Shown here one piece after another: positions 2,669 to 22,430 of a DNA stretch of 25,367 bases. How positions within the stretch are numbered: the stretch's first letter is position 1; each line of letters begins with the position of its first letter. Origin of the DNA: a virus. The DNA lies in the IMG/VR virus record IMGVR_UViG_3300046007_003085, positions 1 through 25,367 of that record. One strand, written 5' to 3'. The notes below the pieces were generated by a model that was not told the origin of the DNA, ran no database searches, and saw only the letters and a program-made list of their open reading frames with translations. Both the position numbers and the translations under genes were made by a program.

Positions 2669-2700
2669 ATCCCCCGGTGGCTTCGAAACCATCGGGGGAT
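2669..2700. terminator. Bidirectional intrinsic terminator
   Basis: A 12-base-pair stem with one G-T wobble pairs ATCCCCCGGTGG with CCATCGGGGGAT around the eight-base loop CTTCGAAA. It lies between two converging genes, seven bases after the plus-strand stop at 2662 and seven bases before the minus-strand stop at 2708. Both sides are A/T-rich, so RNA from either direction would carry a U-containing tail. It closes the plus-strand tail/lysis operon and the minus-strand head operon. Confidence 0.85.
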
Positions 2701-2707
2701 AATTGTT

Positions 2708-3877
2708 TCAGCGTCCTAACGACTTCAGAACGCTCGCAACGAAGTCCTCGCTCTTGGCAGAATTTACATTGGCCGACTTGAAGCCAGGATTCGTCGCCTT
2801 CGAGCTGACTCCCGGCTCGCTGCCACGATACTTCGCCAGTTCGGCTTGCAAGCGTTTGTTTACCTCAACCTGAGAATAGAGAAGCTCGCGGTACTTCGGC
2901 GCGGCAGCAGCCCAAAGAGCGGCTTTGGCGAGGTCTTCTTCGCTGTTTTCACCATTGAAGATCTGCTGCGCGAGGCTGAGACGCTGGTTCAGCTCGCCAT
3001 TCCATTCTTCATCTCCCTCACGCGGCTCGAAGATTTCAAGTGCGCGAGCATTCTCGCTCACCTTAGCCCAGGTTTTACTGGCCGACTCCAACGCAGCCTT
3101 CGTACCCTGCTCGTTGTCCTGCTGATACTTCGAGATGATGGCGTCGTAATCGGACTTAGCCTCGGACATCTCCGCAGCCCTATCGCCGTTAATCTCGTCG
3201 TAGCGAACGATTAGCGCGCCGAGCTTGGCTTTCTTGGATGGCGAAAGACCTTCAACGATGTCATCGATCTGCGAGTTCCGGTAGTCGCTCTCAGGCGACT
3301 TGAGTAGGCCAACAAGTCGTTCTCCATCGGTGCCGACAAGACCCTTCACCGATTCGAAAACTCCGTTAATCTTGCCCTCGTACTTCTTGACGAACTCAGG
3401 ATGACGCTCGATGTCCAGCAATCGAACACGCTCGGAAAGCGCGTCACGCTCCTCCTGCAAGGTCTTGAGCTGCGCCTCGAAGTTAGGATTGGTGGTCTTG
3501 CCAGCTTTCAGCTCGTCCAATTGCTTCGCAAGTTGCGCCTTCTCCTCCTTGATCTTGCGGAATGCGTCAGCGGCTTTCGTAGACTTGATCGTCTCGGGGA
3601 TATCGGAATCAGCGTCCGTAGAAGTCGGAGCTTCGGCGGCCTGCTTCTTCGAAGATCCGAACAAACGCTCGATGTCCTTCTCGGATTTGCTGGCAGGCTT
3701 GGTCGTTTCGGCGGCTGGCGTAGCTGCCTTCTTGGCAGGGTTAGGCTCCTCGGTAACCGGAGTCGATACGCCTTCATCGGCTTCGGCCCCCATGCGGTTG
3801 AATGCGTCGAGAATCGAGTTGCCAAAGTCAGGTTGCGACGCCGGATTTGTCAGCGGAGAATTCAGTGGTTCGTCCAT
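2708..3877 (-). CDS. Putative capsid scaffolding protein
   Basis: Encodes 389 residues that are acidic overall, rich in Ala, Glu and Lys, with no catalytic motif. Residues 1-100 are low-complexity (PAKKAATPAAETTKPASKSE), residues about 101-157 form a predicted coiled coil (FRKIKEEKAQLAKQLDELKA), and the rest is helical with a basic C-terminus (VASVLKSLGR). This composition and the position downstream of portal in the terminase operon fit a head scaffolding protein, which guides capsid assembly and then leaves or is cleaved. The ATG is preceded by the A/T-rich leader CAAATT. The operon ends right after it at the terminator, so a major capsid gene does not follow as it would in most phages. Confidence 0.6.
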   Translation of the reverse strand: MDEPLNSPLTNPASQPDFGNSILDAFNRMGAEADEGVSTPVTEEPNPAKKAATPAAETTKPASKSEKDIERLFGSSKKQAAEAPTSTDADSDIPETIKSTKAADAFRKIKEEKAQLAKQLDELKAGKTTNPNFEAQLKTLQEERDALSERVRLLDIERHPEFVKKYEGKINGVFESVKGLVGTDGERLVGLLKSPESDYRNSQIDDIVEGLSPSKKAKLGALIVRYDEINGDRAAEMSEAKSDYDAIISKYQQDNEQGTKAALESASKTWAKVSENARALEIFEPREGDEEWNGELNQRLSLAQQIFNGENSEEDLAKAALWAAAAPKYRELLYSQVEVNKRLQAELAKYRGSEPGVSSKATNPGFKSANVNSAKSEDFVASVLKSLGR

Positions 3878-3883
3878 AATTTG

Positions 3884-4138
3884 TTAGTATTGCTTTTCGA
3901 AGGTTGCTTCAGGTTCCTTAGTTGTTTCATTCACCGACAATTTTCGAAGGTTTTCAAGACAATGCGCGTAGCCAGCGGTTACACCGGCAGCGAAAATGAT
4001 GTCAGATTCCTTCGCTCCATGAGACGGCATCGGCACCGGCATGGATTCAGCAACGATGCGGATTGCCATGCGTAAGAGCGGAGTCTGTAACAGCTTTGAG
4101 AATTCAGCACTCTCACCGCTTGTCATCCAGTCCGCCAT
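3884..4138 (-). CDS. Small hypothetical protein next to scaffold (84 aa)
   Basis: I start this at the ATG at 4138, which has GAGGTGA at 4141-4147 just ahead of it. The frame also allows an ATG at 4207, but that would overlap the preceding gene by 62 bases and has no ribosome binding site. The product has 84 residues: a helical N-terminal part (FSKLLQTPLLRMAIRIV), a Pro/Met stretch, then a helix-rich segment (KESDIIFAAGVTAGYAHCL) and a charged tail. There is no recognised domain. Placement between a GH130-like gene and scaffold suggests a minor head or assembly protein, but this is inference. Confidence 0.6.
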   Translation of the reverse strand: MADWMTSGESAEFSKLLQTPLLRMAIRIVAESMPVPMPSHGAKESDIIFAAGVTAGYAHCLENLRKLSVNETTKEPEATFEKQY

Positions 4139-4140
4139 AT

Positions 4141-4147
4141 TCACCTC
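4141..4147 (-). promoter_or_regulatory. Ribosome binding site for the 84-residue gene
   Basis: On the minus strand the sequence GAGGTGA precedes the ATG at 4138 with two bases between. It overlaps the stop codon of the upstream gene, so termination and re-initiation are probably coupled. It supports the internal start at 4138 over the upstream ATG at 4207. Confidence 0.55.
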
Positions 4148-5489
4148 AGGCAGATTCTTCAGGTCCGATTTCTGGGTCTTCGTTGAGCCTTTCAGCCAAT
4201 TTATCATACTTTGTTTTCTTGTTTCGTTTCAGTTTATGCCTCTGCGGAATTGGGTCGAGAACCTCGTCTAATTTAGGCGGATTAGCCTTATTTACGACAT
4301 CACGCTTAGGTCGAATCACCTTCGTCACTTCCAACATGTCGGCCAATGGCAGCTTGATGTAGCCGCAATCAACGTCGTTGATGCCGTATGACACGACGAA
4401 ATGATTCTTCGCGCTGTCGTAGAACGCTCCGCATGGGAACACGACCGCAGGCAATCCCGGCCACCAGTCTTGCTGATTTGTGCCGGTGAGAAGCGGCAGC
4501 GTCGTCATGCGGACGATTCGGAATGGAGCCTTAGCCTCGAAGGCGTAAGCCCCCATGTAGTAGCGACGCTTCTTGTTGATCCAAGGAAGCGAGCTGTGGA
4601 AGAAGGTCCAGTACAAGCCATCGACCAGAATGGGATTCGATCCGCCGCGCACCTCGCCAAACTTCCAGAGCGGATTGAACTCGTCGGTGACATACTCCGC
4701 TTCCTTCTCAAGACGCCCATTAAGGCGCACTACGACATGAGGATTGGCCGAATACACCATGTGTGGCGTGTTGTCGTGGACGAAGTAGAGCCAGTTCTTC
4801 TCATGGCCATCGTTCACCATCGCCTGCGCGTAGTTGTTGCCATAGATCGGATCGAATCGAGCGACATTCAGGAACTGCTTGTCCAAGACGAACATTGCCT
4901 GATGCGCGTAGCTCTTGAATGGGACGAACGTGCAGCAGCTTAGTCCGTACTTGTCGCCAAACTTGACGATGCGCGGATCTTCAAACTGCTCTCCCGGCAT
5001 GTGCGAGGTAAGTGTCAGCAACGCCTTCTTGATGGCCCCAAGATCCTTGGTCAGCTCAAAGACAACGATGTCGTTCTTCTCAAGGTAAACGTCCTCATCC
5101 TTCTCGCGCTTGTTGCGGCAGCGTCGGGCGAAAAGCAGGATCTGACCGCTCGGTTCCTGAATGATTGCAGGGTTGAAGTAGTAGGTTCCAACCTCCTCAG
5201 GAAGCGTGATTTTGCCAACCTCCCAGTCGCACTGTTCGGCCAGCTTGGGTACGTCGTTCTTTGCGTAGCTCATTAGAAACTCGGCTGCGAATTTGATTTC
5301 GTCGTATTGAGCAAGCCAATGGTCGCGCTCCTCGCGGACCTCGGTGAGATGCTCTTCGTTTTCTTTGGTTCGAATCTCAAGCGTCTTCTGCAAATCCTCG
5401 ATCTGCATGAGCAAATCGGCCTGACCATCACCGCCATTTGCGAATCGTTTGAGAGCTTTAAGAGACAGACTTCGGATGATGTCTTTCAT
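4146..5489 (-). CDS. GH130-like glycosidase/phosphorylase fold with N-terminal coiled coil
   Basis: Encodes 447 residues. Residues about 25-70 are a charged coiled coil. The body (about 95-390) has the repeating pattern of a GH130 five-bladed beta-propeller: YYFNPAIIQEPSGQILLFAR at 103-122, FEDPRIVKFGDKYGLSC at 169-185, RGGSNPILVDGLYWTFFHSS at 281-300, and FPCGAFYD at 351-358 with SYGINDVDCGY at 367-377. GH130 enzymes are beta-mannoside phosphorylases or hydrolases; the EDPR motif that carries the catalytic Asp in that family is kept here (Asp171). The C-terminus is basic and unstructured (RHKLKRNKKTKYDK). It overlaps the upstream glycosyltransferase stop by one base. The fold call is fairly strong; activity and substrate are unknown, and the coiled coil may tether it to another protein. 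Confidence 0.7.
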   Translation of the reverse strand: MKDIIRSLSLKALKRFANGGDGQADLLMQIEDLQKTLEIRTKENEEHLTEVREERDHWLAQYDEIKFAAEFLMSYAKNDVPKLAEQCDWEVGKITLPEEVGTYYFNPAIIQEPSGQILLFARRCRNKREKDEDVYLEKNDIVVFELTKDLGAIKKALLTLTSHMPGEQFEDPRIVKFGDKYGLSCCTFVPFKSYAHQAMFVLDKQFLNVARFDPIYGNNYAQAMVNDGHEKNWLYFVHDNTPHMVYSANPHVVVRLNGRLEKEAEYVTDEFNPLWKFGEVRGGSNPILVDGLYWTFFHSSLPWINKKRRYYMGAYAFEAKAPFRIVRMTTLPLLTGTNQQDWWPGLPAVVFPCGAFYDSAKNHFVVSYGINDVDCGYIKLPLADMLEVTKVIRPKRDVVNKANPPKLDEVLDPIPQRHKLKRNKKTKYDKLAERLNEDPEIGPEESA

Positions 5490-6118
5490 TATGGATACAA
5501 TTTTGTGTTCTCCTGCGTAGCAAGCCTCGGAAGAATCCCGTAAAAGTTCATCCTAGGCATCGAATCGACCAGCATCTGGATGTCGATTGGACCCCAAACC
5601 TTCTGATTCGTTTCGAGTAGTTTGCAGACACCTTCGTAATTTACAAGGTAAGCATGCGTACACATGCCTCGGACCAGCTTGTAAAGATTCGACGCGATGT
5701 AGCCGTGGTCTTCAATCGGGTCGGCGCAGCAGCTTCCGATGTAGACGACATGCCAGTCGCTCGGCAGATAGTCCAGATTGTCGGCCAGCTTTGCCTTCCA
5801 ATCGGCGCATGTGAACTCAACGTCGTCCTCGACAATCAGAAACGTCCGATGATCAGTCACCTTCGACTCAACCATCCACTTGATGGCCGACCAGACGGAG
5901 AAATGACTGAGTCCGGCGACGATTGTTTTGACCTTTGCCTTCTCCTTCTCGCGTGTGTGGTAGTAGTCGGTCGAGATGCCACAGTTCTCAGCTCTGAATC
6001 CATACATCGGAACCGCATCGATTCCGAATGTCTTCATGTAGCGGATGCAACGTCTTTCCTTCTCGCTTTCAGGCTTCGAGACGATGAAGCACGGCGTCTT
6101 TTCGAGCTGTAGTTTCAT
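5489..6118 (-). CDS. GT25-family glycosyltransferase (copy 2)
   Basis: I start this at the ATG at 6118, which overlaps the upstream stop (ATGA); the frame could extend to 6163 but that adds only residues overlapping the previous gene. The 209-residue product has the GT25 pattern: an N-terminal strand (CFIVSKPESEKERR), GLSHFSVWSAIK at 69-80, and FLIVEDDVEF at 93-102, where EDD is the expected metal/nucleotide-sugar site. It then has DWHVVYIGSCCA at 121-132 and GPIDIQM at 176-182. GT25 enzymes transfer hexoses, mostly galactose or glucose, to LPS or to hydroxylysine in collagen. It is a paralog of the gene at 6710-7312 and sits in the same operon. The acceptor is unknown. Confidence 0.75.
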   Translation of the reverse strand: MKLQLEKTPCFIVSKPESEKERRCIRYMKTFGIDAVPMYGFRAENCGISTDYYHTREKEKAKVKTIVAGLSHFSVWSAIKWMVESKVTDHRTFLIVEDDVEFTCADWKAKLADNLDYLPSDWHVVYIGSCCADPIEDHGYIASNLYKLVRGMCTHAYLVNYEGVCKLLETNQKVWGPIDIQMLVDSMPRMNFYGILPRLATQENTKLYP

Positions 6119-6705
6119 CGGTTCGGGAGGATGTAGATGATGCCGCGACGCGCACCTACGCATCGGCTGGGATGGTTGTAGTAGAAGCTGTAGCCGTACT
6201 TCTGCGTCAGGGTCTTGGCCTTATAAATTGCGTCCAGCTTTTCCTTGATGTAGCCGAGGCAGATGTCGTGGCCGTTGTAGCTGTCGTATCCAAGCTGTCC
6301 GGTCGGCTCCTTGAAATCGTGGATGGCAATGACTGGATGCAGGTCGTATCGGTTGATTGCCTCAAGCTCTTCGAGGAGCGGCAGGTAGTCGTTCCAATGG
6401 GCGTCGAGAAAGAAAATCGTGTCGTGTCCAATTCCGTGATGCGGGATGAACCAGTTCATGCAGGCATCGCTGCTGCCCTCGAACATTTCGACGTAGACCT
6501 TCTCGCGCTTAAACTTCTCCTTAGCTCTCTCAACCAAGTCGTGGTTCAGCTCGCATGAAACGGTCTTGAGGAAGTTTTTGGCCAACCAAACGGTAGTGTC
6601 CGCTTCGTGAGTGCCGGTTTCGACAGCAGTCGTCAGCTCGAAGCGTTCTTTGAGGTAAAGAAACTCCTGCTCGATGAATGTGTCTCCATTGAAAGGTGAA
6701 CCCAT
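6115..6705 (-). CDS. Class I SAM-dependent methyltransferase-like protein
   Basis: Encodes 196 residues. TAVETGTHEADTT at 26-38 looks like the SAM-binding glycine loop of a class I methyltransferase. VSCELNHDLVERAKEKF at 49-65 fits the acidic residue that holds the ribose, and DTIFFLDAHW at 95-104 with VIAIHDF at 125-131 resembles the strand-4/5 motifs of sugar or small-molecule methyltransferases. It lies between two GT25-type glycosyltransferase genes, with a four-base overlap to the one downstream, so O-methylation of a transferred sugar is a reasonable guess. The start is preceded by the A/T leader AAAATT. The substrate cannot be read from the sequence. Confidence 0.65.
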   Translation of the reverse strand: MGSPFNGDTFIEQEFLYLKERFELTTAVETGTHEADTTVWLAKNFLKTVSCELNHDLVERAKEKFKREKVYVEMFEGSSDACMNWFIPHHGIGHDTIFFLDAHWNDYLPLLEELEAINRYDLHPVIAIHDFKEPTGQLGYDSYNGHDICLGYIKEKLDAIYKAKTLTQKYGYSFYYNHPSRCVGARRGIIYILPNR

Positions 6706-6709
6706 AATT

Positions 6710-7312
6710 TTAGTCGGCTAAAGGACAGTCCTCTTGATCCGCAACTCGCGGGAAAATTGTGAAGCATTTCAGATGCTGGCGGCTCTTGAAGTACATCTGC
6801 AAATCGATTGGCGCGAAGACCTCTTCGTTCGTTTCGATGAGAGTCTTGAGAGCCTTTTTTCGGACGATGTAGCAGTGAGTGCAAAGCGGCATCCCCTCGA
6901 AGAGGTTGGAATCCAACTCGCTTGAGAGCTTTCCGTGCGCGCAGCAGGAGCCAGGATAGAGAATATCCCAATCCTCGGGCAGTTTTGTTAGTGCGCGTTC
7001 GATTGTTTCGCGCCAATGAGGACGGAACAGGATGTCATCCTCTAAGACCATCACCATGTCCGGCGTGGAAGGATCGAAATCCAGCGCGTTCCATAGCATC
7101 CAATGGGACATCGTGCATCCAACGTGCTTGGAGCAGATGAGGTAGCCTGAGCCGGGAGCATCCACCTCGTACGGAATGCTCGCTTTCAGACCGGACTTCG
7201 CGCCGTTCAGGCCATAGAAAATGCGATAGTCCGTGATTCCGGCGGAATCTAGGTTTCTTTGTAGGCGCGGGATGCGAGAACTACCTCGCATCGTGATAAC
7301 GACCGTTTGCAC
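6710..7312 (-). CDS. GT25-family glycosyltransferase (copy 1)
   Basis: Encodes 200 residues from a GTG at 7312, four bases after the upstream stop. An ATG seven codons in (7291) would remove the first beta-strand (QTVVITMRGSSR) that aligns with the paralog, so GTG is preferred. GT25 features are GCTMSHWMLWNAL at 65-77, MVMVLEDDILF at 86-96, LPEDWDILYPGSCCA at 111-125, CTHCYIV at 144-150 and APIDLQM at 167-173. The same motifs in the same order occur in the gene at 5489-6118, so the two derive from a duplication or were acquired together. The product should transfer a hexose to a surface or virion glycan; donor and acceptor are unknown. Confidence 0.75.
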   Translation of the reverse strand: MQTVVITMRGSSRIPRLQRNLDSAGITDYRIFYGLNGAKSGLKASIPYEVDAPGSGYLICSKHVGCTMSHWMLWNALDFDPSTPDMVMVLEDDILFRPHWRETIERALTKLPEDWDILYPGSCCAHGKLSSELDSNLFEGMPLCTHCYIVRKKALKTLIETNEEVFAPIDLQMYFKSRQHLKCFTIFPRVADQEDCPLAD

Positions 7313-7316
7313 GGGG

Positions 7317-7934
7317 TTATTTCAGTTTTCGATAGATGGCAAAAACGCTCTCGCTCAGGTCAAATCGCGAGACAAATTCGCAGCGTTTCAGGACGAACTT
7401 GAGAGCAGTCTGGGTTGATTCCCAGTTCACATCGTCCATCACGATGTAGCCACCAACCTTCAGCTTCGGAAGCCAGTTGACGACATCGCTCGTAGACGGC
7501 CATTCGGCGTGATTGGCGTCGATGTGAACCATGTCCATGTCAGGCAGGAATCGCGACGCATCCCATGACGACATGCGGCAGAACTGAATCTGCTTCACAA
7601 CCTGCGCTCGGACGCAATGACCAACGAACGATTCGTAATGCTTGTCCAGATCGAGTGTCGCCCACCAGTCCTGATTAGCACTCGTCTCGTCGTCGATGCA
7701 GTCCTCTTTCTTCCAAGAGTCGATGGCATAAACGGTTCCGCTTCCATTCAGCTTGCAGGCTTGAGCAAGAGCGAGCGTTGACTTGCCCTCGAAGACGCCA
7801 ACTTCGGCGATACGCTGCGGCTTGGTTTCGAGAACAAGTTTGGCAATTTCCAAACCTTTCTTCGGGTCGCACCAGCCGCCCATCTTCGGGAAGTTGTCGG
7901 CGATAAACTGAACGATGTTTTCTTCGTTTCCCAT
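7317..7934 (-). CDS. Class I SAM-dependent methyltransferase (Methyltransf_24-like)
   Basis: Encodes 205 residues with a clear Rossmann methyltransferase pattern. RIAEVGVFEGKSTLALA at 41-57 is the SAM-binding loop, TVYAIDSW at 67-74 carries the acidic ribose-binding residue, MVHIDANHAEWPSTSDVV at 135-152 and GGYIVMDDVNW at 161-171 match the later strands. The HIDANH-type motif with a downstream Asp-Asp is typical of the Methyltransf_24 group (CmcI/macrocin O-methyltransferase-like), which often modify sugars. It is the first gene of the carbohydrate cassette, six bases after the portal stop, and is preceded by GATAAGAATT. The SAM-binding fold is well supported; the substrate is not. Confidence 0.75.
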   Translation of the reverse strand: MGNEENIVQFIADNFPKMGGWCDPKKGLEIAKLVLETKPQRIAEVGVFEGKSTLALAQACKLNGSGTVYAIDSWKKEDCIDDETSANQDWWATLDLDKHYESFVGHCVRAQVVKQIQFCRMSSWDASRFLPDMDMVHIDANHAEWPSTSDVVNWLPKLKVGGYIVMDDVNWESTQTALKFVLKRCEFVSRFDLSESVFAIYRKLK

Positions 7935-7939
7935 AATTC

Positions 7940-10189
7940 TTATCCCTGACGCGCCAAGTTGGACTCGGCAGTTGCATTCGCTCGCTGAATATCAGCGGTT
8001 GTCTTGGCATTCCGGCGAGCCAAGTCGGCCATCGCCTTCGTGTTCTGACGCTGAATGTTGGCCATAGTCTCGGCATTCTGGCGAGCGATTTTCGCCTGAA
8101 CCTCCGCATTCATCACGGCGGTGCGAGGATCGACTCCCTGCTGGATAGCCATCGCCTGCTGTTGCTGCGCCATTGCCTGCTGCTGCTCGGCCAGCATCTG
8201 ACCAAGCTGTTCAACGGTCTGGACAAGCATCTGGAGCTGCTGCGCGTAGGCTTCGACCTGAGGACGACGAGTAGGATCGGTGGAGAGACGAGCCAGATGA
8301 TCCTGAACGTGCTGACCAATACCTTGCAGGAAGAGCATAATCTCCTGCGGATTGCCGCCCTGCTGGATCGAGGAAGCAGCTTCGTTCGCCGCCGCAAGAT
8401 GCGTGTCGATGTGAACGATGTGGTTCTGCGTATCGGTGACGATGGCCATGTTGCCCTGGCGCAGCGACGAATGCTCCAGAACAGCCAGAGCGGTCTGATC
8501 TTGAACTCGCGAAGATTGGATCTGAGTTGGCAGATAACGATCCACCATTTGTTGGCCAACCTGAGCGGCGATGTAGTCGCGCAAAAGGCTAACCTTACCA
8601 CCCTCTGGCAAAGAACCGAGAAGTCCGAGCAGAGAGCCAAGGAGCTGCTGCTTCGCGAACTGAGAACCTTGGCCAACCGTGCGAGTCGCTTCAACGAAGT
8701 CGATATCAAGCATCGCCTGAACCGGAACGCCGCGCTCAGTGCAACGACGCTGGAACTCAATCGCATCCTTATCCGATTTGGTAATCGGGTTCAGGTTGGG
8801 ATTGGAGGCTCGGTTGTACCGCTCTTCGAAGAAGGAATCGAGCTGGTTGTAATACCGGCTGAGCTGCGTCTTACCGATTGCTGACTGCTGCGCCACGATG
8901 GCTTGGATTTCAGTCGCAGTTCGTGGGTTGCCAGCCGGTTTGTTGAGCGATTGGCGATACTGAGAGAGATTGCCCTGAAGAACATTCTCAAGGTCCGCGT
9001 TGACCGCCATAGGAGCGTCCAGAACGCCAGCAATGTTCTGCTGAATGACTTCGTAGTCTGGCGGGAGAATGGCATACGGTCCTTGCTGAACGACGCTTGT
9101 TTTGCTGAGAGCGTTCGGGTTGAGGGGACGGAAGAGGATCTGGGTGCGAGCGAATGCGCTGTCCACCATCGAGCAGCGGAGCCGGTTCTTAAGCTCCATT
9201 GCCTGAAGCATCTTGATACCAAGACCCTTTACGCCGTGATGCTCGCCATCACCACGGTCGTAATACATCGGATGAATGATCTGCTCCCACCGCTTGTAAC
9301 GGCGCAGCTTCCGATACATGAAGTTCTCGCTGTCCCGCTCATCGATGATGGCATGGCTGATCTGGCCATCGAACTCCTTGTAGAAGATGTGGGACATCAG
9401 TACGACCTCTGACCGTGCGGAGAACGTGATGTCGTTTGAGCGGAGTTGACGTTGGAAGAACTCCCAATCGTACTGAACGCCGGAACGGTACGGCTCAGGC
9501 ATCGCGGCACGGATACGCTGGCGAACGTAGTCCACGTTCCAACCGGCAGCAGTCGCAGCTTTCTCGTCTTGGATCTTCTCGAACAAATCATCCACGCCCA
9601 TACGAGTGCGGACGCAGGCCACCTTCCAATCGCTGACATTGGACTTGGTGCCATCGGGGACGAGAAGATCCGTCGCCATGATGGCTTTGCACCGCCAGTT
9701 GGAGCTGTCTTCGAAGATTAGCGGACCATTTCCAATGAGGACCATCTCACGCTGCGAGAGCTGCATGATGTAGTCGAAGTCCTTGTCCAGCTTCTGGAGA
9801 CGGTCGAACTCCTCGGTGATGATCTTCGACCACTCCTCCCGCTTATCCATGTCATTGCCGTAAGCGGTACGAATTGTCGCGTAGGTCGGAACCTCGGCGA
9901 ACACATCGTAGAAGGCTGACATGGCCAACGTGAGGAATGCTTCCGACTCGCGGAAGTTGACGTTGGTACGGAACGCTTGGTTGTTTCGTCGCAACTCCGC
10001 CGGATTGTACGGAGGATTGCCGTCAACAAGACCACGGAGCTTTGCGCGGGTGCTATTCCGCAGCTCGTCGGCCATGATGAGCTTTTGGAATATCTCGCGA
10101 GCCGATGCCGCGTCGGCAATACGAGTTTCGGGAGCTTTACCCTCCTCGTTTATGGTTTCGAGCGGCAGTTGGGCTAGGTTTCCGTACAT
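7940..10189 (-). CDS. Portal protein
   Basis: Encodes 749 residues, the usual size for a podovirus portal, located directly downstream of terminase and a small Zn-type protein. Portal forms the dodecameric ring at one capsid vertex through which DNA enters and leaves. Supporting features are a helical N-terminal half containing SEAFLTLAMSAFYDVF and EEWSKIITEEFDRLQKLDKD, the central segment GNPRTATEIQAIVAQQSA (a portal-like clip/stem pattern), and a long helical C-terminus. The C-terminal 110 residues are Gln/Ala-rich (EQQQAMAQQQQAM) and end in five 11-residue repeats, like the helical barrel of P22-type portals. Its ATG overlaps the upstream gene by 16 bases and is preceded by GGAAAAAACGAC. 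Confidence 0.8.
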   Translation of the reverse strand: MYGNLAQLPLETINEEGKAPETRIADAASAREIFQKLIMADELRNSTRAKLRGLVDGNPPYNPAELRRNNQAFRTNVNFRESEAFLTLAMSAFYDVFAEVPTYATIRTAYGNDMDKREEWSKIITEEFDRLQKLDKDFDYIMQLSQREMVLIGNGPLIFEDSSNWRCKAIMATDLLVPDGTKSNVSDWKVACVRTRMGVDDLFEKIQDEKAATAAGWNVDYVRQRIRAAMPEPYRSGVQYDWEFFQRQLRSNDITFSARSEVVLMSHIFYKEFDGQISHAIIDERDSENFMYRKLRRYKRWEQIIHPMYYDRGDGEHHGVKGLGIKMLQAMELKNRLRCSMVDSAFARTQILFRPLNPNALSKTSVVQQGPYAILPPDYEVIQQNIAGVLDAPMAVNADLENVLQGNLSQYRQSLNKPAGNPRTATEIQAIVAQQSAIGKTQLSRYYNQLDSFFEERYNRASNPNLNPITKSDKDAIEFQRRCTERGVPVQAMLDIDFVEATRTVGQGSQFAKQQLLGSLLGLLGSLPEGGKVSLLRDYIAAQVGQQMVDRYLPTQIQSSRVQDQTALAVLEHSSLRQGNMAIVTDTQNHIVHIDTHLAAANEAASSIQQGGNPQEIMLFLQGIGQHVQDHLARLSTDPTRRPQVEAYAQQLQMLVQTVEQLGQMLAEQQQAMAQQQQAMAIQQGVDPRTAVMNAEVQAKIARQNAETMANIQRQNTKAMADLARRNAKTTADIQRANATAESNLARQG
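7946..8110 (-). repeat. Five 11-residue (33-base) repeats at the portal C-terminus
   Basis: Portal residues about 694-748 consist of five consecutive hendecads: NAEVQAKIARQ, NAETMANIQRQ, NTKAMADLARR, NAKTTADIQRA and NATAESNLARQ. The DNA is repeated imperfectly with the same 33-base period. Hendecad periodicity indicates a nearly straight or right-handed coiled coil, fitting an extended portal barrel projecting into the capsid. Confidence 0.85.
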
Positions 10190-10794
10190 GGTCGTTTTTT
10201 CCAGCAGTGAGCTGGCAAGTTTGCGTTCTCTGTAGCGTCCGTAAATTTATGGAGTGTTTCAATGGGAAACCACACCATGCTTCTAATGAAGCAACCACAA
10301 AATTCACAGCTTTGAAGCTGGTCGTCTAGTGGCGTTGTTCCGTGTTGAGAAAGCGTTCTAACAGCTTCCTTGAGGACGCGAGCGTTACATCCGGTGCATC
10401 CAAGCGGTTTCCGGTTGAACTGACATCCGGCGCAAATGCTCGCCCTTCGAATCGCTTCCGCCTGATCCACCTTACCGCCGCCAACGGTCAGCCCATGAAT
10501 CAGGCTCATGCTGAAGCGGATAACGTCTCCGATCTGAAGAGATTTCAAACCTTTTGGCTTAGGAATCTCAACTTCATCGTAGGAACAATCAGCACCGTTA
10601 CGGCACTGATACTCGGTGATTAAGATGTCGAGGTTGTCTGGAACTTTTACCGCGTTGGCGGCGTAATGGTTTCGGACGAACTCGCGGAGCTGTGGCAATG
10701 AACCAGCCGGTATCTCGATTCCGGTTTCAGGAACGCGGTAGTTCCATCCGCCAGGGATTACATTGTGTTCATTGAGAATCTTGTAGCCGCTCAT
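10174..10794 (-). CDS. Cys-rich zinc-binding-type protein between terminase and portal
   Basis: I start this at the ATG at 10794, which overlaps the terminase stop (ATGA); a longer frame from 10845 would run deep into terminase. The 206-residue product opens with a conserved-looking GGWNYRVPETG at residues 15-25. It carries Cys at 64 and 70, then a compact cluster C121-x2-C124, C133-x2-C136, C163-x2-C166-x-C168 and C197 and C203. CAGC, CTGC and CEFC pairs look like two structural zinc sites. It may be a small-terminase or portal accessory protein, because it sits between the packaging motor and its docking ring, but I do not recognise a named family. Confidence 0.65.
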   Translation of the reverse strand: MSGYKILNEHNVIPGGWNYRVPETGIEIPAGSLPQLREFVRNHYAANAVKVPDNLDILITEYQCRNGADCSYDEVEIPKPKGLKSLQIGDVIRFSMSLIHGLTVGGGKVDQAEAIRRASICAGCQFNRKPLGCTGCNARVLKEAVRTLSQHGTTPLDDQLQSCEFCGCFIRSMVWFPIETLHKFTDATENANLPAHCWKKRPCTET

Positions 10795-12470
10795 ACGTCC
10801 CCGTCGTAGTAAATGGAGTCTGCGTCCCTCACCAGCTTTTCCCATACCTTGTCAGCTTTTGTTGCTCGCGGTTCAAAGGAGGCGGTTTTACGCACCAGAT
10901 CAAGCAAGACTACAGCAGCGTCGGCCAAGTCAGGAGATTTACCAGTCCTTTGCTTCATCACAGTCTTCGATTCGACGGATATCTTACGCTTCCCATCGTC
11001 GAACATTCGCGCACAGAACTCCTGCAACGTCTCGATGTCCATGCCGCCGACCCGTTCCTCGACAACCCATTTACGCATCGAGAACCAGAGTTCCGTCACC
11101 TTGCGGTCGTAAGCCTCATTGCATGGCCTACTATCCTCGTCGCTGACCGGAATGGTCGATGGAGAGCCGCCGAACTCGACGCGATGAACCACACCCCATT
11201 CGCGAGTCAGAATGTCCGCAAGACCGCCACCCTCACCGCTTGAATCGAGAGCGAACTTATCGGGTGGAACACCGCGCTTGTTGCATTCCTCTTTAACTCG
11301 ATTGGCTATCTGGTAATGGACCGGCTCGGTGAGCTGTGCGTTGGGCGATATCTGGATGATGTCCTGAAAGAGAATGCTCAGCTTGTCGTTAGCGGTGCCA
11401 ACCTTGGCAAAGCGAAGGACGCATCTATCGCCGCCAAAACCCGGATCAAGACCGGCAACAATTTGGACGTTTGTAGTAAACACCAAATTTTTTGTAGGTG
11501 TGTGCGTTTCGATAAGCGACTCGGACAGCACTGTCTTGACCATGCCGTCAGGACTCCAGAATCCGCGTGTGTACTTCCAGAACGTAGGACTCTGCTCGCC
11601 CTCATGGCGCATTGCCGACAAGACCTGATCTTGAGTGATGAGATATGGGTACTTCGTTCGCCCCTCGGTGATGTTCGGCGACTTCATGCCGTCGAAACGT
11701 CGGCACATACCGCGTTCCGTCAGCCAATGCTGATCTTCAATCGTGACGCTGCGCCACCCTTTTGCCGGTGTGCAGAATCTGCCGTGCGGATCGAACTTTG
11801 ATGCCGGATTCCCGATGACCAGCATCTTGAACTCGCGGCAACCCTTGGAGAGGTTTGTACAAGCCTCGAACGCCGCTTCAGGCGTATCTGTCGCTTCGTC
11901 GATGATGACCATCACGCGTTCCGCATGGATACCCTGAATGTTGGCCACCGCCTTCGAGGTGTTACCTTCGGCGACGGCGATAGCTGAAATAGAGTGCCGG
12001 TCGTCACCTTTGACAGCCTGTAACGCCATCTTCGAATCGACCATGTTGCCGGGGAATCCTCGCGATTTCCGAACAAGATCCTGAAGATTAGCCCACATAC
12101 GCTTTCGGATCATCTTCGCGGTCGTCGATGTCAGGACAACCGTTGACTTGGCAGGGTTGGCCAACCACCAGACCGTCGCAAAAAGCGTTGCGCCAAAGGT
12201 CTTTCCGCTCGCTCCGCATCCCGCCCAGCCAACGTAGTCATGCTCGCAGAGGCTTTCGACTTGAGCTTCGAGCCATGGGTTCCAGCTCATCTTTGGCCAG
12301 AGCATTTTCGTCGCATTCTGAAAATGTTCGAAAGTACCTAGTCCACCCTCGTTTGGTTGGAGTCGGTTGCGGAAAGCGTACAGCTCCAGTTCAAGATCGG
12401 GAATCTTGACGGGAGAACGTATTCCGTACTTGTGGTCGATCAGTGGATTCTCAGACACTTGCTCTGCCAT
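10791..12470 (-). CDS. terL: Terminase large subunit
   Basis: ATP-driven DNA packaging motor and headful or cos nuclease. From the ATG at 12470 (AAGG seven bases upstream) the product has 559 residues. The ATPase domain has a Walker A GCGASGKT at 84-91 and Walker B VMVIIDEATD at 186-195. The nuclease domain has AGLDPGFGGDR at 339-349, FALDSSGEGGG at 406-416 and SPDLADAAVVLLDL at 512-525, giving the three expected acidic positions (Asp342, Asp409, Asp514 or Asp517). The frame extends to a TTG at 12536, but that would overlap the diverging gene. It leads the leftward head operon. A separate small terminase is not obvious. Confidence 0.92.
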   Translation of the reverse strand: MAEQVSENPLIDHKYGIRSPVKIPDLELELYAFRNRLQPNEGGLGTFEHFQNATKMLWPKMSWNPWLEAQVESLCEHDYVGWAGCGASGKTFGATLFATVWWLANPAKSTVVLTSTTAKMIRKRMWANLQDLVRKSRGFPGNMVDSKMALQAVKGDDRHSISAIAVAEGNTSKAVANIQGIHAERVMVIIDEATDTPEAAFEACTNLSKGCREFKMLVIGNPASKFDPHGRFCTPAKGWRSVTIEDQHWLTERGMCRRFDGMKSPNITEGRTKYPYLITQDQVLSAMRHEGEQSPTFWKYTRGFWSPDGMVKTVLSESLIETHTPTKNLVFTTNVQIVAGLDPGFGGDRCVLRFAKVGTANDKLSILFQDIIQISPNAQLTEPVHYQIANRVKEECNKRGVPPDKFALDSSGEGGGLADILTREWGVVHRVEFGGSPSTIPVSDEDSRPCNEAYDRKVTELWFSMRKWVVEERVGGMDIETLQEFCARMFDDGKRKISVESKTVMKQRTGKSPDLADAAVVLLDLVRKTASFEPRATKADKVWEKLVRDADSIYYDGDV

Positions 12471-12524
12471 AGTTTGGCCTTGCATTAGTTGTCGTTGGAC
12501 TTGAGGTTGTGCGAAAGGAAAAAT
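12471..12524. promoter_or_regulatory. Divergent intergenic region between terminase and fibre genes
   Basis: Only 54 bases separate the terminase ATG (12470) from the fibre ATG (12525). The two main late operons diverge here, so promoters for both should be in or near this stretch. I see no convincing pair of -35/-10 boxes. The only clear signal is AAGGA (12515-12519) five bases before the fibre ATG. Promoters may overlap coding sequence or be of a type that is not recognisable by eye. Confidence 0.4.
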
Positions 12525-13730
12525 ATGCCGTCGCAACTTGTTTCTTCATCCGGCTGTTGCCAGCCTTGCGACTCCGAGCCGGTAGTCGTGAATATCCCCG
12601 GTCCTCAAGGAGCAGCGGGTACAAACGGCACCAATGGCACGAACGGAATTGATTCGTTCACCTACACAACGGCTGCGTTTTTTGTTCCTGCGCTTGGTTC
12701 GAGCGTTCTTGTTTTCGTCGATAATACCGAGTTTCTGCCCGAATCAGTCGCCGGACAGTTCTTCGTTTCGATTCAGGGTCTTGGGTACATGCAGGTTCTG
12801 TCGGTTGACGGCTTGCAGCTAACGCTTCAAAACCCTGCTCCCGGTGTTCTCGGCATTGCCAATGCGATTCCGACTACGCTGATTCCTCCCGGTTCGCTCA
12901 TCACGCTAGCTGGAGCGATTGGTCCTACGGGTGCTGCGGGTGTTTCTGGCGGTGCGCCGATTGGAGCTTCCTACATTTGCCGAACAGCAGATGGAACTCT
13001 AACGAACGAGACTGCCCTCGATTCGCTTGCCGCCGGTTACATGAAGACCGCCGGATCTGGCGGTGCTGGCGTCGTCTCGACGGCTGCGACGGTGCCGGTT
13101 GGCGACATCAGCGGTACGTTGCCGATTGCCAAGGGTGGGACGAATGTTACGACCGTTCCGTCTAATGGTCAGATTCTGATCGGCAATGGAACCGGATACA
13201 CGGTGGCCAGCTTGACTCAAGGGTCTGGCATTACGATTACGCCGGGAGCTGGAACCATTTCAATCGCATCGACGGCTGGACCTGCGTTTAGCTACGTCAC
13301 GTTTACGCGCAGGGTTGATTCTGGAACGCTTCCATTTGTTAACCCATCACCTGTAAATCAAAACATTTTTAGCAGTACAAATTATCCAAGTACAAACTAT
13401 ACCGGAATTGATACTGCCTCTGGATTTAATTCTGTAAACGGAAGGTTTGTTGTTCCTTACGCTGGATACTACAGGTTAGACGCTTTGTTTATTTTTACAC
13501 CTGCTGCTGGAAGTTATGCCAACGCTTCAATTAGAAAAAACGGATCAACAACTCTTCTTCCATTAAGCGAAACGGCAACAATTTCTCCGGTTGCGATTGG
13601 GCCGTTTTTTCTTCAATACATAGATCAAGCTGTTGCCGGTGATTATTACGAGCTTGTTGTTACGTCTTTTGGATCTGGCGGAACAGTCGGAGCTAACTCT
13701 TCCTTCTCCATCCAGCGGATTCAGGCTTAA
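12525..13730 (+). CDS. Collagen-stem, C1q-like-head tail fibre protein
   Basis: From the ATG at 12525 (AAGGA five bases upstream) the product has 401 residues; a TTG at 12489 would add 12 residues that overlap terminase. It has a Cys-rich start (GCCQPCDSE), a collagen-like run GPQGAAGTNGTNGTNG at 26-41 and a second GAIGPTGAAGVSG at about 131-143. A phage tail motif block follows (SGTLPIAKGGTN, NGQILIGNGTGY) at about 186-248. Residues about 255-401 form a C1q/TNF-type jelly roll with GRFVVPYAGYYRLDALFIF in the middle. Such proteins trimerise through the collagen-like helix and bind ligands with the globular head, so a receptor-binding fibre is likely. The head is encoded by AT-rich DNA (35-43% GC) unlike the stem. 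Confidence 0.75.
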   Translation: MPSQLVSSSGCCQPCDSEPVVVNIPGPQGAAGTNGTNGTNGIDSFTYTTAAFFVPALGSSVLVFVDNTEFLPESVAGQFFVSIQGLGYMQVLSVDGLQLTLQNPAPGVLGIANAIPTTLIPPGSLITLAGAIGPTGAAGVSGGAPIGASYICRTADGTLTNETALDSLAAGYMKTAGSGGAGVVSTAATVPVGDISGTLPIAKGGTNVTTVPSNGQILIGNGTGYTVASLTQGSGITITPGAGTISIASTAGPAFSYVTFTRRVDSGTLPFVNPSPVNQNIFSSTNYPSTNYTGIDTASGFNSVNGRFVVPYAGYYRLDALFIFTPAAGSYANASIRKNGSTTLLPLSETATISPVAIGPFFLQYIDQAVAGDYYELVVTSFGSGGTVGANSSFSIQRIQA

Positions 13731-15597: not shown

Positions 15598-16299
15598 ATG
15601 CCAAACCTTACGCTCATCACTCTTACTCCGCCGAGTCTGCCGGTTGGATATTGTCCGCTGAATTACCAGACGTTGGCCAACGATATCATCAGCGGCACTC
15701 AGGCGACGTTCAACAGCTCGATTGGAAACTCGTTCTTCAACTTTGGATCTTCGACGCCTGCGCTGAACAATCAGGTTTATCCGTGGCTAGATGAAGATGG
15801 TAATTGGTGGGTCTTTAACGGTGGGTATTGGAATCGAAAGCATCCGGTTTCCATAACCAGTTCCGAGCGTCGGATCTTCATTGGCACCACCAACGACTTG
15901 CTTTCGTACGATGGTGGCGATGGAACTTCTAACCCTCCTACCAATTACACCGGAGCGATGTGGGAGGTTGATACGAATTTTCAGGCTCGCTTCCCGGTCG
16001 GTGCCGGAACTTTTGCGGCGAGTGGTGTTGTCACGGTTGGCGGAACTACTACGTCAACCGCTATCGCTGGAGAGGATCAACACACGCTGACGGTTCCTGA
16101 GATACCTGCTCACACTCACAATTTCTTCCCGCTTGTCACTGCGGATGCAAATAATGGCGGAGCCAATGGCGTCCAGTACGGCACCACCGCAAATGTTGCC
16201 ACTTCATCCACTGGGGGTGGAGCGGCCCACAACAACCTGCCGCCGTTTTACGGTGTTTACTTCATCAAGCGAACCGCCCGAGTCTACTACACCAAATGA
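15598..16299 (+). CDS. Tail-collar-type fibre tip protein
   Basis: Encodes 233 residues. The N-terminal half contains PWLDEDGNWWVFNGGYWNRK at about 63-81. The C-terminal half has the phage Collar pattern ARFPVGAGTF at 130-139, EDQHTLTVPEIPAHTHN at 159-175 and HNNLPPFYGVYFIKRT at 211-226. In T4-type short tail fibres the His-x-His motif binds metal ions at the trimer axis; His172, His174 and His211 could do the same here. It is preceded by the leader AACAATT and its stop overlaps the next ATG (ATGA). Likely a receptor-contacting tail part or fibre tip. Confidence 0.75.
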   Translation: MPNLTLITLTPPSLPVGYCPLNYQTLANDIISGTQATFNSSIGNSFFNFGSSTPALNNQVYPWLDEDGNWWVFNGGYWNRKHPVSITSSERRIFIGTTNDLLSYDGGDGTSNPPTNYTGAMWEVDTNFQARFPVGAGTFAASGVVTVGGTTTSTAIAGEDQHTLTVPEIPAHTHNFFPLVTADANNGGANGVQYGTTANVATSSTGGGAAHNNLPPFYGVYFIKRTARVYYTK

Positions 16300-19535: not shown

Positions 19536-22430
19536 ATGCCATTATCACCTGAAAAAGCTGCTTTGCTTCAACGACTTGAGGCGGAAGTCGCTAGACGAAT
19601 GGCGTCAAGCAATGCCGTTCCAAACCAACCTTCTGTTCCGCAGGTTGAAGCTGCCGCTGCTGTTGGGTCGACAGCTCAGTTGAATCAGGCGGTTCAGGAT
19701 GCGAGCAATGTAGGCCAGCAAGAAGGAGGGTTCATGGCTGGCCTGAAAGAGGTGTTCCGTGGAATAGGAACCGGAGGCGGCGGTCTGTCTGGAGGTGAAG
19801 TTCTTCGCGCTCCTGTTGCTGGAGCTGAAACCCCCGAAGGTCAAAAGTTTCGTCAGGCCGCAAGATTCCAAGCTGCTACTGGAGCTGGAATAGTTGCCCC
19901 AGAACTCCTTGCCGCAGCAGTTCCAGAAGTTGCCGCTGGAATGACCGCTGCTGGTGCAACTACAAAACTGGGTCGTTTTGGACAATTTCTTGAACGTGGA
20001 GGCGCGCAAGCACTTGGAGGTGGAACTGGTGGAGCTGCAACAGGTGCGGTAGAAGCGTTGCCTGAACTCGCTCGCGGAGAATACGGAAAAGCTGCCGAAA
20101 CGGTTGGCGAAAACATTCTTGCAGGAACAGCACTTGGCCCACTTATCAGTGAAGTTGGCGTTCCAGTTCTTGCTGCTGGAGCTAGGCAGTTTGTTAAGCC
20201 TGCAATCGCTGCAAAGGAGTTTCTTACTGGAGGTGGATTTAGGGGTGCAGCGACGACTTTCTTTCGACCTCGCTACGCTCCTCGCGTTGGCTCTCTGGAG
20301 ACTTCGCAGATTCGGGACACCATTGAGTCTTCTACTGGCGTAAGAGTTCCACTCGGTGTTGCTGAGGCGATTGGCGAACCAGGACTTGTTGAGGCAATCA
20401 AGAATGCTCCAGTTGGTGCGGAGGTTACGCCCCAACACATGGAAAGCCTCAAAAGGCTGATTGTCCTGAACGCCACCGAGCTTGGCGGAAAGAACACAGG
20501 AATTACGACCGATGAACTTGCCAAGAGTGCTGTCGACATTTTGAGGAGGCGACTTGGTGCAGTTTCAAAGCCTTACGAAGACGCAATCGGAACGCTTTCG
20601 GCGCAGTTGAAGCCTTCAATCGACAAAGGTTTGATCGATGTTCAGAACTCGGCCAATGCGCTGATTCCTGGCACTGCCGCAACACCTTCGTTTCTTGGAA
20701 ACAAGTTCCGAGAACTACAGCAAGCTGGATACGATTTCTTCAAGCAAACCGACACCAAGAATTTCAACACGCTTCGAAACGATCCTACCTATCAAAAGCT
20801 GACCGTAAAAACTCCGAGCATGTCTGAGTGGGCCAACAACATCGATGCTCAAGCGGTTCAGATGTTCAAAGGCACACCTGAGCAAGCTGGTGGACTTGTT
20901 GATGAGTTTGGATTTCAGATTCCCAAGGAAGAGGTTCTCGCGACTCGCGGAATTCCTTCAACCTATCCAAAGGGTACTCGTGAATATGTGGCTGCTATCG
21001 GCAACATGACCGAAGATCAGTCCATTGATGCGCTTAGGAGATATCGCACTCAGATTGGAGATTCCATCGGAAAGGACGACCTGCTTCCCGGCCTTTCTGA
21101 CAATGCAAAGAAGGATCTGTACAAGGCAATTACCACAGACATCGACAATGCAATTTCCAATCTCCCAACAGGAACTCTTCGAGAAAAACTCGACGTTGCA
21201 AACAAGTTCCACCGCGAAAACGTGGACAAGTTTGTTGGTCGTCAGATCCAGTCGCTGATCAAAGATGTTGGCGCAGAGGGTGGTGCTGGACCGGCGTCAA
21301 TCGCAAGCAAGCTAGAGTCTGCTGACGCCCCCACTTTTCTTGAGTCAATCAAGAGTGCTGCTCGACCGGAAGACGCTGCGGCAATCGATTCTACCGCGAA
21401 AGAGTACCTGTTCAATCAGGCCGCAAAGTCTGGTCTTGATCCGGTTACTGGTGAGATTTCTGTTTCTAAAGTCGTCAACTACATCAACGGTCTTGCGCCT
21501 GAAATCCAAGGCAAATTCTTCCCGAACGCGAAGCAAATTGCAGGTCTAGCAAAGCGGCAATCTGCGCTGTCTGGCCTTGATCCTAATAAGGTGGTTTCAA
21601 GCCTTACTGTAGATGCAAATGTTCTCTCTGATGCGCTTGGCTCAAAAGCTCCAGAGATTCAAAAGACTATTGCAGAAGCCATAAAAGCTGCTGGAGAAAG
21701 GGATAAGCAGTTTCGTGGAACCATTCTTGGAGCGCTAAAGAAAGCATCGTCAAGCGATGTAACTGACATCGTTTCTCAGAATCCTAAAAAGTTCATCGGT
21801 GGAATTGTTGATGGTTCATACACGCCAGAGCAAAGCCGAGCTGCCCTCGACATGATTGGGCGTGAAAGCCCAATGCTGGTTCAACAGCTTCAGTTTCAAT
21901 ACGTCAATGACTTGATCGAAAAGTACACCACATCGGGTGTTCTAAATTCAAAGCAGTTGGCGTCTGAACTTGCTGGAGAGTCGATTGTCGGAAAAGCGAG
22001 TGATGTTAGAAATTACGCTGATGCAATACTTGGTGGAGGAAAGGTTTCTAAACTCAAGGCAGTCTTGGACAATGTTTCAAAACTCGAAAACCTAAAGACT
22101 CCAATCGCATCGAATGATCCGCTTGTGGAGGTGATGGCCAGAACTACTGGAGCGGCGGTTGGCGCGGCGGTTGGCGGCGTCGCTCGGGTTGGTCCTATTG
22201 GGACTGCGAATCAAGCGGCCCAGATGGTTAAGTTGGCTCCTCGCGTAAAATACAAGATTGCTTCATACCTTCTTTCAACACCTCAGTTGAGAGAGCTTGC
22301 GATGAAGCCAATCGGTCGATTGTCAAAGGATGAACTGAACGCTGTTCTCCGTGGAACTGCTCAAGCTGTTGCCGCCAATGAAGGTGAGGAATCACCCGAC
22401 ATCGACGAACTTCAAAACCTTGAACGATGA
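19536..22430 (+). CDS. Large internal virion/ejection protein (964 aa)
   Basis: The longest gene here. The first 250 residues are rich in Gly and Ala, with repeated GG blocks (GIGTGGGGLSGGEV, ALGGGTGGAATGAVEA) and weakly hydrophobic helices. The middle (about 260-850) is helical and charged, and residues near 855-880 form another Gly/Ala hydrophobic stretch (GAAVGAAVGGVARVGPIG). Such very large, helical, Gly/Ala-marked proteins at the end of a podovirus ejection set correspond by position to T7 gp16 or P22 gp16. I find no lysozyme or transglycosylase catalytic signature. The start has only an A-rich leader (CAATAAAAAT) and its stop overlaps the next ATG (ATGA). Confidence 0.6.
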   Translation: MPLSPEKAALLQRLEAEVARRMASSNAVPNQPSVPQVEAAAAVGSTAQLNQAVQDASNVGQQEGGFMAGLKEVFRGIGTGGGGLSGGEVLRAPVAGAETPEGQKFRQAARFQAATGAGIVAPELLAAAVPEVAAGMTAAGATTKLGRFGQFLERGGAQALGGGTGGAATGAVEALPELARGEYGKAAETVGENILAGTALGPLISEVGVPVLAAGARQFVKPAIAAKEFLTGGGFRGAATTFFRPRYAPRVGSLETSQIRDTIESSTGVRVPLGVAEAIGEPGLVEAIKNAPVGAEVTPQHMESLKRLIVLNATELGGKNTGITTDELAKSAVDILRRRLGAVSKPYEDAIGTLSAQLKPSIDKGLIDVQNSANALIPGTAATPSFLGNKFRELQQAGYDFFKQTDTKNFNTLRNDPTYQKLTVKTPSMSEWANNIDAQAVQMFKGTPEQAGGLVDEFGFQIPKEEVLATRGIPSTYPKGTREYVAAIGNMTEDQSIDALRRYRTQIGDSIGKDDLLPGLSDNAKKDLYKAITTDIDNAISNLPTGTLREKLDVANKFHRENVDKFVGRQIQSLIKDVGAEGGAGPASIASKLESADAPTFLESIKSAARPEDAAAIDSTAKEYLFNQAAKSGLDPVTGEISVSKVVNYINGLAPEIQGKFFPNAKQIAGLAKRQSALSGLDPNKVVSSLTVDANVLSDALGSKAPEIQKTIAEAIKAAGERDKQFRGTILGALKKASSSDVTDIVSQNPKKFIGGIVDGSYTPEQSRAALDMIGRESPMLVQQLQFQYVNDLIEKYTTSGVLNSKQLASELAGESIVGKASDVRNYADAILGGGKVSKLKAVLDNVSKLENLKTPIASNDPLVEVMARTTGAAVGAAVGGVARVGPIGTANQAAQMVKLAPRVKYKIASYLLSTPQLRELAMKPIGRLSKDELNAVLRGTAQAVAANEGEESPDIDELQNLER

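Follow-up and report, generated by a model that had tools for sequence, protein, structure and literature searches.

A variable glycosyltransferase and methyltransferase cassette with a constant GH130/GT108-like partner in a terminase-portal-scaffold operon of uncultured phages

Virion glycosylation has been reported for a few mycobacteriophages (PMC11256854, PMC12619734), and in chloroviruses changes in glycosylation genes give rise to antigenic variants of the capsid glycan (PMC7019647), so that glycosylation of virions by virus-encoded enzymes is feasible. The mycobacteriophages Che8 and Rita (Freeman et al. 2023, as cited in PMC11256854 and PMC12619734) encode their own glycosyltransferases, and chlorovirus PBCV-1, with its protein A064R (PMC7019647), combines cytoplasmic virus-encoded transferases with a sugar O-methyltransferase. 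Here we describe a locus that is alike in these respects, found in a 25,367-base IMG/VR virus record (IMGVR_UViG_3300046007_003085; "the window" hereafter means this whole stretch of DNA), in which two GT25 glycosyltransferases, two methyltransferase-like proteins and a propeller protein, named GHP here, are encoded between portal-like and scaffold-like genes. Our preferred explanation, to which we give a probability of roughly 0.57, is that these phage genes are expressed late and make up an assembly line that produces a methylated glycan, that its alleles are exchanged between phages and that its product is most likely attached to the virion.

A preliminary description, made from the sequence of the window, had noted these five genes, and all of them were found as open frames at the places given, on the minus strand, in the order MT1, GT-A, MT2, GT-B and GHP when read from the portal-like gene. 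The names "portal" and "scaffold" are given by position after the terminase large subunit (TerL) gene. The genes of the cassette and of its immediate frame are the following (lengths in amino acids, aa).

7940..10189, minus strand: portal-like protein, 749 aa, upstream border of the variable cassette, named by position after TerL
7317..7934, minus strand: MT1, S-adenosylmethionine-dependent O-methyltransferase-like protein (Pfam Methyltransf_24), 205 aa, variable cassette
6710..7312, minus strand: GT-A, GT25 glycosyltransferase (PF01755), 200 aa, GTG start, variable cassette
6115..6705, minus strand: MT2, methyltransferase-like protein (weak Methyltransf_25), 196 aa, variable cassette, the weakest assignment
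5489..6118, minus strand: GT-B, second GT25, assigned by likeness to GT-A, 209 aa from ATG 6118, variable cassette
4146..5489, minus strand: GHP, long N-terminal helix and GH130/GT108-like five-bladed propeller (PF04041), 447 aa, constant gene
3884..4207, minus strand: u107, constant small gene between GHP and the scaffold-like gene, by position
2708..3877, minus strand: scaffold-like protein, 389 aa, last gene of the operon, by position

The junctions within the cassette are gaps of 4-5 bases or overlaps of 1-4 bases: 5 bases separate the portal-like gene from MT1, 4 separate MT1 from GT-A and 4 separate GT-A from MT2, the MT2 stop and the GT-B start share a 4-base ATGA overlap (ATG 6118) and GT-B overlaps GHP by 1 base. 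The open frame listed for GT-B starts at 6163, while the version from ATG 6118 has 209 aa, a length found in several relatives too. The placement between portal and scaffold holds with one qualification, namely that u107 (4207-3884) intervenes between GHP and the scaffold-like gene.

This arrangement is shared by relatives. Among the best 80 of 168 portal relatives (90-100% identity, some of them near-copies of each other), a cassette gene lies directly after the portal in all 80; none of the 68 contigs carrying a complete portal and GHP has an empty slot, and each of the remaining 12 breaks off within the slot or near the start of GHP but still shows a cassette gene behind the portal. GHP is followed by u107 and then by the scaffold-like gene in all 60 portal loci with a contig long enough to show it. 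A further scan took the best 80 of 191 relatives, and when all fetched loci were pooled 83 distinct complete portal-to-GHP intervals were obtained, a pool with a bias, GHP or glycosyltransferase queries having supplied part of it; every one of the 83 contains both a transferase and a methyltransferase, and 82 contain a GT25. The suggestion of a compact glycosylation and methylation system in a late operon is well supported by position, by the tight junctions, by this 83/83 co-occurrence, by the lack of a sigma-70-like promoter match before the cassette and by the likeness of the GT25 profile to collagen-type protein glycosyltransferases and of the MT1/MT6 profile to NovP. The gene order, which the preliminary description had proposed to check, is kept in relatives down to 38% portal identity: L390 retains it with portal 71%, MT1 71% and intact, GT-A 58% and GHP 48% identical, and in L465 the portal (38%) is followed by a protein of 433 aa that matches nothing in Pfam, by two genes just under their Pfam cut-offs, one GT2-like and the other methyltransferase-like, and then by GHP (39%), two small genes and scaffold (25%). 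A pattern designed to reach distant relatives found nothing.

What escaped the preliminary description is the hypervariability of the cassette, which is exchanged, GHP staying constant. Ten line-ups occur among the 83 distinct intervals, and an eleventh (GT32-MT5-GTC) occurs in L068 and L370, which lie outside the 83 with GHP or portal cut short. The line-ups are made of GT25 enzymes of families A, B and C, a GT32-like and a GT2/GT7-like enzyme and the methyltransferases MT1, MT2, MT5 and MT6, each slot containing one or two glycosyltransferases and one to three methyltransferases within 1.2-3.1 kb (3.9 kb in L465). Gene clusters c8 and c10 were dismissed as wrong-frame readings over MT5 and GT32. 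In a portal tree of 76 rows (the window and 75 of the 83, eight being left out because their portals are incomplete or distant), nine line-ups require at least 28 changes, compared with a minimum possible of 8 and with 42.2 for shuffled labels, and the well-supported (starred) branches alone force 12 changes for the window line-up and 7 for the seven rows with GT2-MT2-GTB.

Exchange is also seen between close pairs. Line-ups differ in 42 of the 83 pairs whose portals are at least 96.5% identical in nucleotides, and among these 42, the 7 pairs that allow the comparison have capsid-like proteins of 95-100% identity. Identity drops in a cliff at the portal stop and returns as steeply at the GHP start in L009/L010, L058/L060 and L064/L067; between the window and L069 it shifts gradually, with no cliff. 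GHP, u107 and scaffold stay constant while the cassette changes. In L045 and L046 the cassettes differ, the portals are 99.6% identical and TerL, fib2, tail233, tail617 and tail323 are identical (ivp286 is 77% identical and fib1 is not comparable), and in L046 and L047 the comparable fibre is identical and the cassettes are different.

The exchanged genes are under purifying selection, the median ratio of non-synonymous to synonymous substitution rates (dN/dS) being 0.05-0.08 for the nine cassette gene families (0.047 for MT2), as estimated by a simple pairwise method at high dS (medians 0.4-1.1) and, for GTC, MT6 and GT2, from 6-17 pairs. Values for other genes are 0.04 for TerL, 0.06 for portal, 0.07 for GHP, 0.17 for fib2 and 0.22 for u107; the last gene keeps a constant position, yet its ratio exceeds those of GHP and of the scaffold-like gene (0.12). 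Cassette-free relatives, named earlier as the sign of mere passenger genes, were sought and none was found among the best 80 of 168 portal relatives, and because of this 80/80 occupancy and the strong constraint we reject the passenger-gene reading for the relatives examined.

Of the two GT25s and of the two methyltransferases in the preliminary description, one each scores above its Pfam cut-off and the other below. GT-A matches Glyco_transf_25 (PF01755) with E 1.5e-10 and 41.8 bits (cut-off 24), and GTC of relatives reaches 87.2 bits with the same family; GT-B scores 18.3 bits, under the cut-off, but is 35% identical to GT-A over 137 residues and matches PHROG 2835 (glucosyltransferase, E 4e-7). 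Families A, B and C are 31-36% identical to one another, and the acidic EDD/DXD-like catalytic motif of the GT25 family (EDD; E98, D99 and D100 in L081 numbering) is invariant in 12 of 12 aligned GT25s of the three families. Against solved structures the GT25 profile best matches mimivirus R655 (E 8e-14), which is itself a putative collagen transferase (PMC9546862), followed by procollagen galactosyltransferase 1 (E 1e-12). Among the enzymes of relatives, the GT32-like one matches Gly_transf_sug with E 1e-12 and the GT2/GT7-like one scores 23.2 bits against a cut-off of 23. MT1 matches Methyltransf_24 with E 6e-20 and 72.5 bits (cut-off 26.3), its TylF score (14.7) being under the cut-off of 23, and MT6 reaches 62.8 bits with Methyltransf_24 and 31.1 with TylF (cut-off 23); the solved structure best matched by the MT1/MT6 profile is NovP (E 3e-7), a sugar O-methyltransferase, with other O-methyltransferases next. 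MT2 is the weakest call, with 15 bits for Methyltransf_25 (cut-off 27) and weak general methyltransferase matches.

Phage transferases can also hypermodify DNA (Pyle 2024, as cited in PMC12619734), and the name glucosyltransferase carried by PHROG 2835 would suit enzymes that glycosylate modified bases of the phage genome. The position between portal and scaffold and the kinship to sugar O-methyltransferases do not fit such a role, and a Pfam scan of 15 non-fibre, non-cassette proteins of the relative G003, several of them without match and not covering every small frame, returned domains of the exonuclease-like, helicase, SSB, HNH, CoiA and AAA kinds and neither a hydroxymethylase nor a dioxygenase. 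Since no base hydroxylase appeared among these 15 proteins, we consider modification of DNA or nucleotides very unlikely.

GHP, the constant member of the system, matches Glyco_hydro_130 (PF04041) with E 3.8e-9 and 36.4 bits (cut-off 26) and has fold matches with Z up to 27 over 280-300 residues, both in agreement with the GH130-like propeller of the preliminary description. A model from a shallow alignment gave a pLDDT of 40.5; the AF2 model built from 16 sequences, distant homologues included, gave 74.7, with propeller blocks at 59-95, mostly above 83, and the long N-terminal helix at 50-67. In a structural comparison with VIA-align, GH130 phosphorylases score Z 25-27 and a mannoside synthase about 25; GH130 hydrolases follow with 22-23 and Leishmania GT108 proteins with 21-22, while GH43 does not exceed 19.9; GT108 and GH130 have a common fold and mechanism (PMC8950772). 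N106 and D171-P172-R173 are invariant in the GHP alignment with distant homologues (16 rows, one a fragment), and the motif stretch aligns with Lin0857, though this stretch alone scores weakly; in GH130 no residue but the counterpart of this Asp is a candidate for the catalytic acid, and the mannose at the -1 site is bound by the Asn (PMC4599007). GHP is thus like GH130 and GT108 in its EDPR-motif Asp, its -1 site Asn and its C-terminal YGxxD Asp (residue roles from PMC4599007), but it is only 12-18% identical to solved structures, adds the long N-terminal helix and sits in a phage operon. Given the fold match and the invariant residues, GHP is therefore probably an enzyme, of transfer, phosphorolysis or hydrolysis as far as its sequence tells.

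The nearest solved folds are phosphorylases, and H298 aligns with a phosphate-binding histidine of GH130 phosphorylases, as might be expected if GHP were a degradative mannoside phosphorylase or hydrolase lying beside transferases by chance. We judge this improbable, since the fold group also includes the mannoside synthase and the GT108 transferases, since the propeller occurs within giant-virus proteins named after glycan synthesis and since two other phage groups, reached by GT25 and GHP profile scans, have GHP homologues close to genes for GT25s and methyltransferases. The first group consists of L379, L431 and L433, mutually similar contigs of 52-172 kb, T4-like by our reading of a clamp-loader-like AAA gene, with GHP homologues near GT25 genes; GT32-like and MT5-like genes are also near the homologue in L431 and L433, L379 has a GT32-like gene, another methyltransferase gene and a sulfotransferase, and L431 a DegT aminotransferase. 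These contigs carry long glycan clusters (L379:2496-11308, L431:2568-12085 and L433:3687-14705). In the second, L381 (193 kb), a GHP homologue 24-28% identical lies downstream of a baseplate-J gene, and about 1 kb beyond it, downstream of tail genes, a single protein (L381:9056-10603) fuses an FkbM methyltransferase domain to a GT25 domain. A GHP match was also found in L432. The homologues of L431 and L465 are above the PF04041 cut-off and that of L379 is below (22.9); that of L381 has no Pfam match, and its last motif is apparently absent.

Among viral predicted structures, the GHP propeller matches two uncultured tailed-phage proteins and pithovirus and mimivirus proteins, as well as parts of giant-virus proteins named fucosyltransferase, LicD and polysaccharide pyruvyltransferase (rmsd, root-mean-square deviation, 6.7-13.7), these names being database labels and two of the three superposing only at rmsd 13.7. 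On balance, the neighbourhoods and the giant-virus matches point to glycan synthesis. We tentatively suggest, as a wider possibility, that GHP is a GT108-like transferase of phages and giant viruses that marks an unnamed viral glycan system, performing a constant step on a virion acceptor while the swappable cassette provides a recombination-switched "serotype" under frequency-dependent selection, largely independent of receptor-binding proteins.

Expression together with head proteins, as the preliminary description supposed, would apply to the terminase-portal-scaffold operon, but the capsid-like gene is outside it. Two further features delimit the operon.

10791..12536, minus strand: terminase large subunit (PHROG 2, E 1.7e-23), first gene of the operon
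2669..2700, no strand assigned: 12-pair terminator-like stem (terminator scan) at the boundary between the scaffold-like gene and a convergent cluster

The capsid-like gene, named by size and position only and without PHROG match, is on the opposite strand in all 198 fetched loci where it occurs together with the portal gene, a count that includes overlapping loci; the cassette therefore shares its operon with terminase, portal and scaffold and not with the capsid gene. This is an unusual split of head genes, the capsid-like gene lying in a cluster convergent to the terminase-portal-scaffold genes (G012:24115-25419; G003, minus strand, 20699-21982). Late expression of the cassette is inferred from position. 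A promoter scan of the stretch, limited to sigma-70-type sites and giving fewer matches than in shuffles, had no match before the cassette, the sole minus-strand match (4232-4203) being inside the GHP end; the terminator scan gave 12 matches against 10.8 in shuffles, one of them a 5-pair match inside GT-A. The portal-like and scaffold-like proteins have no Pfam match above cut-off and no PHROG match, the portal profile has no match among PDB chains and u107 has no Pfam match.

A fixed frame of portal, GHP, u107 and scaffold holds an exchangeable cassette, and the system may work as follows. The cassette alleles would be exchanged by recombination in the conserved flanks. Using nucleotide sugars of the host, the GT25, GT32 and GT2 enzymes would assemble a short glycan in the cytoplasm, which the methyltransferases would then cap by O-methylation. 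GHP, which accompanies every cassette and retains the GH130/GT108 active-site motif, would carry out the step shared by all, most likely by transferring a unit of beta-mannoside type. The acceptor would be a virion protein, capsid or fibre, and allele exchange would change the sugar coat of the particle and not its proteins: GHP and the structural genes are unchanged when the cassette changes, and the acceptor should therefore be common to all, with only the sugar altered. The place of the cassette in the operon and the kinship of its GT25s with protein-glycosylating ones lead us to favour a virion acceptor, and virion modification, with a putative acceptor, is our best guess; the interpretation of the preliminary description is in this way upheld in part, namely for the system itself, its virion target being plausible.

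As the GT25 profile points to collagen-type transferases, a collagen-like stretch might be thought of as acceptor. One short stretch of this kind is present in the window at 12600-12653 (GPQGAAGTNGTNGTNG; 22 variants with small changes among relatives, while the rest of the fibre varies), and the window and five long relatives each have one collagen-like stretch, GxxGTNGTNGTNG, and no other. This candidate remains a guess and was set aside, its conservation being ordinary and lysine being absent. The fibre-like genes at 12489-13730 and 15598-16299 vary strongly among near-identical relatives and form a second variable zone apart from the cassette.

Several observations weigh against attachment to the virion or against frequent exchange. 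The collagen-like stretch is no better conserved than its surroundings (0.82-0.87 compared with 0.78-0.89 nearby) and lysine is absent from all 22 variants read; bacterial GT25 is also matched by the GT25 profile, at a lower level (E 4e-9), and the weaker matches of the GHP propeller include fibre and neck-appendage proteins. Only 40 of the 71 inner branches of the portal tree are well supported, and some switches could be assembly chimeras, since metagenome contigs are the source of the cassettes. Pairs with different cassettes have less similar fibres, the median identity of fib2 being 90% in same-cassette pairs (29) and 75% in different-cassette pairs (30) and that of tail233 being 90% (12 pairs) and 76% (21 pairs), in comparisons whose pairs are not mutually independent, so that some link between cassette and receptor binding is possible.

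Such co-adaptation of fib2 and tail233 would be given by a late change of the host surface, in which methylated sugars are added to host lipopolysaccharide (LPS) or capsule before lysis, so that progeny avoid debris or rival phages are excluded. LPS precursors on the inner side of the membrane can be substrates of soluble GT25s, and Pfam labels GT25 as an LPS biosynthesis family. The transferases of pelagimyophages (mostly GT8) have likewise been read as changing the host O-chain (PMC7029224). The GT25 profile, however, best matches collagen-type transferases, no cassette protein has a clear membrane span (19-residue hydropathy maxima 0.50-1.49) and a flippase-like protein is absent from the cassette, and the cassettes of L045 and L046 differ in spite of four identical tail or fibre proteins, in one pair only. 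We therefore regard host-surface modification, the main rival, as possible but doubtful, and retain an assembly line acting on the virion as the preferred explanation.

The cassette swaps suggest that the sugar coat of the phages themselves or of the dying host is altered. A terminase-portal-scaffold operon with sugar-building genes and a constant partner enzyme is present in every member examined of a family known from metagenomes only, and the frequent swaps between near-identical phages resemble serotype change in bacteria. Natural pairs such as L045 and L046 offer allelic contrasts for a role of the sugar coat in masking from defence at the host surface, adsorption or particle stability, and GHP raises the question of a role of GH130-like propellers in viral glycan synthesis, which may concern giant viruses too.

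No near match of the window was found among 50,697 phage records, and portal, GHP and the L379 and L381 homologues of GHP are all without a match in INPHARED; TerL has remote matches only (at most 25% among the matches listed), and the sole match of GT-A is Burkholderia phage AP3 (26%, two records of AP3). A weak host hint, too little to name a host, comes from L429 (CAITJF010000097.1), a 4.8 kb contig with GHP and scaffold-like genes in a metagenome-assembled genome of an uncultured Nitrosomonadales; no tRNA genes were found in two relatives. In G004, a double-size record of 92,531 bases, a second scaffold-like match (54819-55718, 29% identical) may indicate two phages or a chimera.

Gtr O-antigen seroconversion systems comprise a membrane flippase and a bactoprenol glucosyltransferase, and unlike them the window cassette has no clearly hydrophobic span. 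In the pelagimyophages, which are alike in carrying transferases in hypervariable regions (PMC7029224), these genes lie beside tail-fibre genes, in regions of about 45 kb of large myophages, whereas the slot described here lies between two structural genes. In Che8 and Rita glycans have been reported on capsid or tail-tube proteins; the window phage differs from the mycobacteriophages in having its transferases between portal and scaffold, together with methyltransferases, a constant GH130-like partner and frequent switching, and the glycosylation genes of Maravista are found near the 3' end of the genome (PMC11256854). The chloroviruses infect algae, and A064R unites two transferase domains and a methyltransferase in one protein (PMC7019647), the likeness being one of description. 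In the literature searched, as far as it was available, no description of this cassette was found and the constant GH130/GT108-like partner was not found described in phages; the system as a whole would belong to the already known virus-encoded glycosylation.

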